In this document: in pieces, positions 3,283 through 12,135 of the stretch | Layout: each line of letters begins with the position of its first letter | Position numbering within the stretch: the stretch's first letter is position 1 | From: Methanohalophilus mahii DSM 5219 | Lineage (GTDB): Archaea; Halobacteriota; Methanosarcinia; Methanosarcinales; Methanosarcinaceae | Assembly (NCBI RefSeq): GCF_000025865.1 | Contig: NC_014002.1 | Location: 1,054,001 to 1,118,000 of the forward strand | Direction of reading: 5' to 3' | DNA length: 64,000 nucleotides | The notes under the pieces: model-generated | Seen by the model: only the letters and a program-made list of their open reading frames with translations | Databases searched by the model: none | What the model was told of the DNA's origin: nothing | Program-made: the position numbers and the translations under genes

Positions 3283-3876
3283 TCAGCAGTTGTGTTTACA
3301 TTCAATAACCATCAATTTTTCAAAAAACGAACGTGTCTCAGCTACCACATAGGCACTGAAACCCTCTCGCTCCATGATATCAAATACTTCCCTCCTACCT
3401 GTAAGGGAAGAAATGAATAGCAGAACACTCCCACCGGGTTTGAGATAGTCGGATACTTCAGCAAAAAAGGTTGCTATAATATCCCTTCCCTCAACTCCTC
3501 CATCAAAAGCATAATTGAGCCACCCCTCTAACTTTTCTTCTTCGGAAGTCGGGAGATAGGGGGGGTTAAACAGTATGACATCAAAATATGCTTTTTTTGT
3601 GAGTCCGCCAAAAAGGTTACTGCGGAAAACCTGAATACCGTTTTTATATGCGCATTCAAGAGCATCAGGATTTATGTCACAACCTGTAGGTTCTACGTTC
3701 TTATTAGCGGCAACCACTGCAGAAACAAAGCCGCTTCCCACGCCCATTTCCAGCACTTTCATGCCATCACTTATGCGGTCTATTGCAACATCTGCAAGCA
3801 GGAAAGAATCTTCCGCAGGTTCATACACATCATTTTCAATGCTAACAAAAGCATTGCGATATGAAATGGGAGCCAT
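3283..3876 (-). CDS. HemK2/MTQ2-type protein methyltransferase
   Basis: SAM-dependent class I methyltransferase of 197 residues. Motif I is EMGVGSGFVS at residues 43-52, and the catalytic NPPY is at 104-107, the signature of Gln/Asn and related N-methyltransferases. Archaeal HemK2 homologues methylate translation factors such as aRF1, working with Trm112; that role is by homology only. Its ATG (3874-3876) shares one base with the TAA that ends the extended ksgA frame (TAATG), which suggests translational coupling and supports the longer KsgA. It is the last gene of the L21e-RpoF-DUF655-KsgA-HemK cluster. Confidence 0.88.
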   Translation of the reverse strand: MAPISYRNAFVSIENDVYEPAEDSFLLADVAIDRISDGMKVLEMGVGSGFVSAVVAANKNVEPTGCDINPDALECAYKNGIQVFRSNLFGGLTKKAYFDVILFNPPYLPTSEEEKLEGWLNYAFDGGVEGRDIIATFFAEVSDYLKPGGSVLLFISSLTGRREVFDIMEREGFSAYVVAETRSFFEKLMVIECKHNC

Positions 3877-4679
3877 TAGTTATCCCTTGCTTCATAGATA
3901 ATATTTGATATGGTTGCAAAATCTTCAGGGAAAAGCTGCTCGGCACGTTTTCCCAGGAAATCTTCAGGAATTAAACGAAGAATATCTTCCTAGTCTGCCA
4001 GAGGAGGATTACATTTTGTAAGAGCATTTTTCATTTTCTTGCGCCTCTGGCCAAAGGCAGCCTCCACAACCCTGAAGAAGAGTTGCTCATTCTTCACCTC
4101 AAAAGCCGGTGGCCGGGGTACCACTTCAACTACTGCAGACCAGACTTTTGGAGCGGGAGTAAAAGCAGAGGGAGAAATTTTGCGAAGGAGTCTAACATCA
4201 GCAAAATACTGTGTATCCACTGAAAGCCGACCATAATTCTTAGAACCTGGGGCTTCTACCATTCTTCTGGCAAACTCGTACTGATACATTAAAATCCCTT
4301 TTTCAAAACCGTGGTTAAGAAGGCGGAAAGTTATGGGAGAAGAGATCGAATAGGGTAAATTTGCTACCACTTTATTGAAGGTAGGCAGTTCAACCTTCAT
4401 TGCGTCCCCTTCAATTATATCAATATTGGATACATTATGGAATCGATCCTGCAGCACTGCCACCAGACGGGAATCCCGTTCAATCACAATAACCCTGCCT
4501 GCCCTGGAAACCAGACGCTCTGTAAGATTACCGATCCCGCCACCTATCTCAAGAACGACATCATCAATTTGCAGGTCTGCAGCTTCTGCTATTGAATCCA
4601 GTATCGGTTCATTTACCAAAAAATGTTGGTCAAGGGAGCCACCCCTGATCCCATATTTTTTAAGAATAGAGTATACCAA
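3876..4679 (-). CDS. ksgA: 16S rRNA dimethyladenosine transferase with in-frame TAG (probable pyrrolysine codon)
   Basis: Dimethylates two adjacent adenosines in the 3' hairpin of 16S rRNA during small-subunit assembly. Motif I EIGGGIGNLT (44-53) and the NLPYSISSP motif (107-115) are intact. Codon 230 (3990-3992) is TAG. A conventional call would stop there at 229 residues. After it the same frame continues for 37 codons to a TAA at 3876-3878, with sensible C-terminal sequence (DILRLIPEDFLGKRAEQLF). The 267-residue total is the usual length for archaeal KsgA, and the TAA overlaps the hemK start by one base. I therefore call the full frame. The start is TTG, 5 nt after a GGGTG ribosome binding site. 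Alternatives are a truncated but working protein, or a nonsense mutation. Confidence 0.85.
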
Positions 4680-4690
4680 ACCTACACCCT

Positions 4691-5287
4691 TTATTCATTG
4701 TGAGGGCGGCGATGTGGCCTCGTGAAAAGTCTGTACTTGATATTATCGTCTTTCAGTTCTTCGATGATACGATTGACAATAGCTTTCTGGGGCGTATGTA
4801 CTCCACCCACACGTTCATGGAGTTCTTCAAGACTTTTGAACTCACCTTTCTTACGTTCATCAATTATTGCCCACATGAGTTTTTTGCCAATACCGGGTAA
4901 AAGCTCTAGCATGTGCTGGCGAGTAGTTATGGGATGAGCTTCATTGAAGAACTTTACAAAACGTTCCTCATGATGTTTTACCGATTGTTCCAGTACATAT
5001 GGAAGTTCAAGTTGTGCACCACTGGTAAGATCATGGTAATGAATCCGATGCTTGACATGATCAATTTCTTCCCTGTCACCTTCTCCAATATAAACCCTGG
5101 ACTGTATCTGAGGAGTGACTTTATCCTTGGGGACAAGTTCCATGAGTACGAATTTAGAATCACCCACTGCCTGGACTAAAGGTATTTTCTGGTATGTGGG
5201 ACGCGGATCATTAGGATTTCCATAAGGAAGATAATCCAGAACCCATGCGTACTCTTCTCTTTCAGCTTTTTTCCCCTTTGTATTCAT
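4691..5287 (-). CDS. DUF655 family RNA/DNA-binding protein
   Basis: 198-residue archaeal DUF655 protein: an N-terminal OB-like beta domain followed by a helix-hairpin-helix region (LLPGIGKKLMWAIIDERKKG). In archaeal genomes it is regularly encoded between rpoF and ksgA, as here, which suggests a role in ribosome or RNA metabolism; the exact function is unknown. A longer start (GTG at 5299) is possible, but GGAGG lies within that extension and 5-6 nt before the ATG at 5285-5287, so the ATG is the better start. It ends 11 nt before the ksgA start. Confidence 0.85.
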   Translation of the reverse strand: MNTKGKKAEREEYAWVLDYLPYGNPNDPRPTYQKIPLVQAVGDSKFVLMELVPKDKVTPQIQSRVYIGEGDREEIDHVKHRIHYHDLTSGAQLELPYVLEQSVKHHEERFVKFFNEAHPITTRQHMLELLPGIGKKLMWAIIDERKKGEFKSLEELHERVGGVHTPQKAIVNRIIEELKDDNIKYRLFTRPHRRPHNE

Positions 5288-5357
5288 TATATCCTCCACG
5301 GAGCAAGTAAGACTATTGATATTATCTAAAAGAAAAAGTCGTATATGGAATATAAAT

Positions 5358-11052: not shown

Positions 11053-12135
11053 TTAATGAAATTTCAAATCAAGTTGTTCTAACCTTCTAGACCAACTTTT
11101 TTCATGCCTCTCTTTTTTCCATTTTTTTGTCTGCTCTGTATCAACAAAAACACCCGGTATATTATCAATCCAAGAAGGGTTACACAGATTGAAAATATAT
11201 TCTTTTACAGTGTTTTCAAACTTAGGCATAAAATTGGGTAATATTTCGGACTCAATAATTTCTTCTTTCATTTCATCAGATATCTTTTTGAAATTGATAT
11301 TTGTCATGATTTGAGCTTCAGGAAGCATTTTGTAATTTATGGTTTCTTTTACATCAAATAAGCATAAAATTCCATACCTTGCAAAGTAGAACCCAACTTG
11401 TTCAATTGTTGCTCCATCTATTTTTTCTTCGCCAATTCCACCGAGTCTACCGAGAATGTAGTAAGCCATAATCTGATTGAACATATCTTTTGTAATCGAT
11501 AAATTTCGGCTCGTTTTTATATCAATTATTTTGTTGTCGATAACAATATCTGCTTCAGCACCACCAAGGAGTTTAGATGCATCATTAAATCTAGGACTTA
11601 ACAAACAGTGTGATTCAGCTTTAAATTGATTAAAATCAACAGCATTTATTAAATTATTTAAGTCTTGGATATCTTTAGGATCAATTTTTAAAAATGGATT
11701 TTTTTTATACCTATTCGCTGAATGATAGTATTCATCTAAATGTGCAAGTAAAATAGAACTTATCAACAAATCGGATGTAAGAATACCAGTATCTAAAAAT
11801 TCCTAATATACTTTTACTGCAAAATTGAAATTATTTTTTGCCTTTTCATAGATTTCATCTGAAACAGCATTATAGATATGTAATTCACTATTGTTTCTTT
11901 GAATTTCCATTATATTAAGAGATTCTTTTGCAATGCAATTTTCAAGAATGGAATTTTTGTTGTGATACATTAAATGCGCTTTCAGTAAATAATCAAATGC
12001 CGTACCAAGTAAACAATGTTTAGAAGATATAACTGGTGCTCTGATGTCGCCTACTAATTTTCTTTTTGGTTTTTCAAAGGCATTTGAGAATAAAATTTTT
12101 GCATTTTTTTGTTTTAAAAACGGTGTTAATCCCAT
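11053..12135 (-). CDS. RecB/Cas4-like PD-(D/E)xK nuclease with in-frame TAG (possible pyrrolysine codon)
   Basis: Read as one frame, this is 360 residues with a single TAG at codon 111 (11803-11805). Without read-through it would be two pieces: 110 residues (11803-12135), and a second piece whose first in-frame start is only a TTG at 11767-11769. The part after the TAG holds the nuclease core: GGAEADIVID, then IIDIKTSRN (the D-x-K motif), and the RecB-family Q-x3-Y motif in NQIMAYYILG. No other stop interrupts the 361 codons. The start ATG lacks a ribosome binding site, and a TATA-like stretch about 25 nt upstream suggests a leaderless mRNA. The gene is AT-rich and lies just after the tRNA-Leu, consistent with acquired DNA. 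A nonsense-mutated pseudogene is the main alternative. Confidence 0.6.

Follow-up and report, generated by a model that had tools for sequence, protein, structure and literature searches.

The stretch analysed here, which we call the window, comprises 64,000 nucleotides of the genome of Methanohalophilus mahii DSM 5219, a genome represented by a single finished contig of 2,012,424 bp. On its minus strand lie a gene for a DUF655 protein, the rRNA dimethyltransferase gene ksgA and a gene for a methyltransferase of the HemK2/MTQ2 family (Table 1); the first two are likely carried on one transcript. Translation of window positions 4679..3876 on the minus strand yields, with the stop codon read through, 267 residues with one TAG. 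An earlier note on this DNA had placed a TAG at codon 230 of ksgA, followed by 37 codons and by a TAA that shares a base with the hemK2 start, and both its coordinates and its description proved right on translation. The TAA occupies positions 3878..3876, and its last A is the first base of the hemK2 ATG (TAATG), an overlap common to the six congeners checked. The M. mahii ksgA starts with TTG (window 4677-4679, minus strand), while the four full-length congeners compared have GTG. A plus-strand reading of the same coordinates was discarded, as it contains many stops.

Table 1. Features of the ksgA locus and the coaD gene; positions refer to the window unless another contig is named, and G001, G002, G004, G005 and G006 are congener genomes.
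Feature	Position	Strand	Remarks
ksgA, 16S rRNA dimethyladenosine transferase (KsgA/Dim1)	3876..4679	-	267 codons; TAG is codon 230, then TAA
In-frame TAG, codon 230 of ksgA	3990..3992	-	CAG in G001, G002, G005 and G006; CGG in G004
Tail of ksgA after the TAG, 37 codons	3879..3989	-	last three predicted helices of the C-terminal domain; conserved K/R-R-A-E..L.P motif
hemK2/MTQ2-family methyltransferase	3283..3876	-	TIGR00537, 174 bits (cut-off 87); ATG overlaps ksgA TAA by one base
DUF655 protein (PF04919)	4691..5299	-	directly upstream of ksgA
CoaD gene	G000 (M. mahii):C1:270756-271217 (locus L086:10756-11217)	-	TAG against GGG (Gly44) in G002

The tail beyond the amber codon

The sequence beyond the TAG is typical of KsgA, as the earlier note had held. 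All 37 residues of the tail are identical to those of congener G002, with five synonymous differences between the two. With the tail included, the TIGR00755 (ksgA) match scores 254.9 bits in place of 241.0 (cut-off 171) and reaches position 255 of the 256-position profile, where it otherwise ends at 219. The PF00398 match, at 200.9 bits against a cut-off of 24, gains nothing from the tail. Among 29 relatives, residues R245, A246, E247, L249, P251, A255 and N259 of the tail are invariant, and column 230 itself is occupied by I (18), V (5), Q (3), K (2) or R (1). Open frames of this kind are rare in the sampled part of the genome, where at least 37 open codons with a coding score of at least 0.28 follow 3 of 1,064 ORFs ending in TAA or TGA; a chance origin of the frame after the ksgA TAG is thus unlikely.

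The predicted structure of the full-length protein has a mean pLDDT of 91.3, with a low-confidence stretch at residues 221-230, past which helices are modelled at 230-236, 239-242 and 251-266. On this model, a product of 229 residues would be without the last three helices of KsgA. A Foldseek comparison matched the model to the Dim1 of M. jannaschii (3fyd; E 1.8e-32, TM 0.87). The two family models and the archaeal Dim1 fold agree in assigning the product to the KsgA/Dim1 (RsmA) family, as a predicted rRNA adenine dimethyltransferase; enzymes of this family act on a pair of neighbouring adenosines close to the 3' end of 16S rRNA.

No marked RNA structure was found 3' of the TAG (z = -1.05), and a PYLIS-like element following the UAG was rejected on account of this ordinary stability. 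The lack of a standout element downstream of the ksgA UAG is in line with reports that such an element is not required for UAG decoding (PMC8211752).

Recent appearance of the TAG in M. mahii

KsgA was found in 106 of the 112 genomes of the family and in 171 of the 186 genomes of the order, and among the matches listed (all but a few of the weakest at order level) there was no second case of a TAG within KsgA. Two apparent candidates were dismissed: the TAG in G167 precedes the conserved start of the gene, and in G176 the TAA is simply where the gene ends. The ksgA genes of congeners G001, G002, G004 and G006 are 93-94% identical to that of M. mahii over all 267 codons, and the similar gene of G005 (a genome matching Methanohalophilus profundi SLHTYRO; G005:C2:377225-378024) is split near codon 167 by a frameshift that is either an assembly error or a real lesion. 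In all five, with CAG (four) or CGG (one) at codon 230, the sequence goes on to the same TAA. The alignment that the earlier note had suggested thus gives Gln or Arg at position 230 in the congeners, and no orthologue ending at residue 229, which would have spoken against pyrrolysine (Pyl), was seen among the relatives. A contig scan for a second M. mahii strain found congeners only.

Besides the TAG, M. mahii has 15 fixed differences of its own in the body of ksgA, of which 10 are synonymous or affect the start codon. The tail has a single one, also synonymous, and one change is not enough to demonstrate that selection on the tail continues. The restriction of the TAG to M. mahii among the listed KsgA matches suggests a recent CAG-to-TAG transition in this lineage. 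A TAG that faces sense codons in orthologues, between conserved flanks, is the pattern of natural Pyl proteins, and ksgA shows it. The conserved UAG position of catalytic Pyl proteins such as MtmB is not seen in KsgA, in which the site is I, V, Q, K or R elsewhere.

Pyrrolysine machinery and TAG usage in the genome

Natural Pyl proteins are expected in genomes with pylT, pylS, pylB, pylC and pylD, and M. mahii has this set complete, in support of the earlier note's pyrrolysine reading. In a profile search PylS (368 bits), PylC (447 bits) and PylD (346 bits) scored over their curated cut-offs, and the ORF between PylS and PylC was named PylB-like by its place and sequence, with no profile. The pyl genes are clustered, pylS, pylC and pylD being adjoined by pylT, which encodes a tRNA-Pyl with anticodon CUA; a search of 1.2 Mb of M. 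mahii turned up no second tRNA with this anticodon. The single canonical release factor aRF1 retains the NIKS and YxCxxxF motifs, as read by eye, and UAG is therefore presumably still able to terminate translation. In M. acetivorans, about 20-30% of the product of a reporter with an introduced amber codon was full-length (PMC2933860), and partial termination is likewise to be expected at the ksgA UAG. The earlier note had held that KsgA is made mainly as a Pyl protein of 267 residues, a view that read-through of just this order does not support.

We took 1.2 Mb of the M. mahii genome as a sample, together with the corresponding 1.2 Mb of G002. A gene set based on the longest ORFs was dropped because antisense and over-extended ORFs gave false interruptions, and ORFs were picked by codon-usage score instead. 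The 1,082 ORFs of the M. mahii sample end in TAA (523), TGA (541) or TAG (18). At least 30 further coding-like codons follow 12 of the 18 TAG-ended ORFs, as against 67 of the 1,064 that end in TAA or TGA (Fisher p = 1.3e-10), and many of these 67 continuations probably represent a following gene that happens to share the frame. Known Pyl genes account for three of the 12 (two mtmB and mtbB). Others that continue are ksgA, citrate synthase (PF00285), an AMP-binding acyl-CoA synthetase (Q491), a DUF255 protein (Q161), two PAS-domain sensor proteins and one gene of the window. In contrast to these, about five genes, including pylB, appear to end truly at TAG; pylB does so in several Methanosarcinaceae (PMC2933860).

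Two further in-frame TAGs, in CoaD and in an MFS transporter (W289), fall outside the count of 12. CoaD, pantetheine-phosphate adenylyltransferase (NF001985, 190.5 bits, cut-off 104), has a coding signal on both sides of its TAG and is probably the strongest case for UAG as a sense codon in an essential gene. For the citrate synthase amber, decoding as Pyl was already suggested in the paper describing the M. mahii genome (PMC3017947). Given the in-frame TAGs in these two genes, read-through of UAG is likely already a need of this organism.

A stricter tally of interruptions in M. mahii genes that are intact in G002 gave five TAG, two TAA and no TGA, and the reverse tally in G002 gave two TAG and one TGA. 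Codon use in M. mahii (per 1000: CAG 19.2, TGG 8.9, CAA 8.8, CGA 2.3) makes TAG the commonest stop reached in one step: by codon counts, about 58% of the single-transition paths to any stop start from CAG or TGG. The tally, though suggestive, thus amounts on its own to no significant excess of TAG, and we set it aside as evidence. The case is carried instead by how seldom TAG acts as a terminator, by the coding tails that follow TAG and by the in-frame TAGs of CoaD and citrate synthase.

Interpretation of the ksgA UAG

We consider it likely, with a probability of roughly 80%, that the ksgA UAG is read as Pyl, following a lineage-specific and probably neutral change from CAG to TAG that is tolerated in a variable loop. 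A single C-to-T transition would have converted the CAG codon of Gln230 to TAG after M. mahii split from its congeners. The Pyl-tRNA (CUA) would let ribosomes read the codon at least partly as pyrrolysine, yielding KsgA of 267 residues, while the remaining ribosomes would stop at residue 229. Residue 230 would sit in a variable linker that leads into the last three helices, where Pyl is probably tolerated, not used, and the site probably needs no Pyl chemistry. Neutral drift may have sufficed, in a lineage where true termination at UAG is uncommon. We infer the insertion of Pyl at codon 230, as we do its efficiency and the neutrality of the change; no earlier report of Pyl in ksgA was found in the literature searched.

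How such a mutation can fix is suggested by work on other archaea. H. volcanii, S. acidocaldarius and P. furiosus all survive deletion of KsgA/Dim1 and grow normally in the laboratory (PMC7897474), so that less full-length KsgA would be tolerated. The same dispensability weakens the case that rRNA maturation needs Pyl, and together with the position of the residue in a variable loop it tells against the earlier note's proposal that maturation would depend partly on Pyl supply.

The viable deletion mutants would also suit an explanation in which the TAG is a recent nonsense mutation and the main product a KsgA of 229 residues that has lost some or all of its activity, a loss the cell could bear since the enzyme is dispensable. 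The amber suppression of just about 20-30% in M. acetivorans fits this explanation, as does the replacement, in this lineage too, of the GTG start of ksgA by TTG. However, the catalytic motifs and body of KsgA are conserved, the tail has no amino-acid change relative to G002, and CoaD and citrate synthase also carry in-frame TAGs; we therefore regard a nonsense mutation as unlikely. An error in the reference sequence, with CAG as the true codon 230, would be consistent with a single-base change unique to the one M. mahii genome examined, but the window comes from a finished, single-contig genome in which several independent in-frame TAGs occur elsewhere, one of them noted in the genome paper (PMC3017947), and such an error seems very improbable.

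Still harder to credit is a regulatory role for the UAG, whereby partial termination would tune hemK2 translation and set up feedback between termination strength and the level of HemK2. The hemK2 start lies inside the ksgA stop, and its translation may be coupled to ribosomes passing the UAG; in addition, the HemK2/MTQ2-family product is expected to methylate aRF1, Mtq2-Trm112 being described as methylating eRF1 at the GGQ glutamine (PMC7708063). Yet the UAG is missing from every congener although the TAATG overlap is kept, which argues against a conserved circuit between the two, and a stop just 111 nt upstream need not silence hemK2.

Read as Pyl, the ksgA codon has its parallel in Thg1 (tRNA-His guanylyltransferase) of M. 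acetivorans, likewise a housekeeping RNA-processing enzyme with an in-frame UAG in one species and a sense codon in relatives. Pyl was physically observed in Thg1 (Heinemann et al., 2009, as cited in PMC2933860), where it is described as dispensable for activity, and the ksgA site likewise probably has no need of it. In ksgA, by contrast, Pyl is deduced from the gene, and enzyme, genus and position all differ. With the citrate synthase of M. mahii (PMC3017947) it shares the genome, the kind of reasoning that leads to Pyl and a function other than methyl transfer from methylamines, although the citrate synthase amber is close to the N-terminus (at codon 61 of the ORF analysed) and that of ksgA close to the C-terminus. 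The methylamine methyltransferases MtmB, MtbB and MttB, of which M. mahii has MtmB and MtbB, also read an in-frame UAG as Pyl, but there the residue is catalytic and conserved across species, whereas the ksgA TAG is lineage-specific and falls at a variable site.

In the archaeal 'Pyl code', TAG is read as Pyl throughout. M. mahii resembles this state in its few true TAG terminators and many in-frame TAGs, and departs from it in that TAG apparently remains the true end of a few genes (pylB and about four more). That UAG is primarily a Pyl sense codon genome-wide in M. mahii, or close to becoming one, with KsgA one of many such proteins, is a tentative proposal to which we would give slightly less than even odds. 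If it is true, neutral drift would have spread Pyl to many proteins, CoaD and citrate synthase included, and left few UAG-terminated genes.

With KsgA, an enzyme of rRNA modification would join the few probable Pyl proteins that have no part in methylamine metabolism, and M. mahii would depend on sense decoding of UAG for essential functions (CoaD, citrate synthase). The ksgA gene is one of several housekeeping genes in this organism with an in-frame TAG, a good but not unprecedented case of probable Pyl decoding. M. mahii thus offers one organism for testing how Pyl users avoid misreading of UAG or truncation, and automated annotation would label such genes truncated or pseudogenes.

Other interrupted genes were encountered along the way. 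In the window, the gene at 11053-12135 (minus strand) consists of 110 codons, a TAG (11803-11805) and 249 codons, coding-like on both sides; it matches no Pfam family, and the G002 stretch has no gene that corresponds to it. Two G002 genes have in-frame TAGs of their own where M. mahii is intact, one encoding a protein of 273 residues (G002:C1:514771-515589, L102; Ser102 in M. mahii) and the other a protein of 537 residues (G002:C1:1524424-1526031, L143; Gln372 in M. mahii), which points to turnover of in-frame TAGs between species. Finally, an M. mahii gene (G000:C1:1336404-1337411) has a TAA at Lys297 of a 334-residue G002 protein, followed by a well conserved coding tail; this looks like an ordinary nonsense change, beyond explanation by Pyl.
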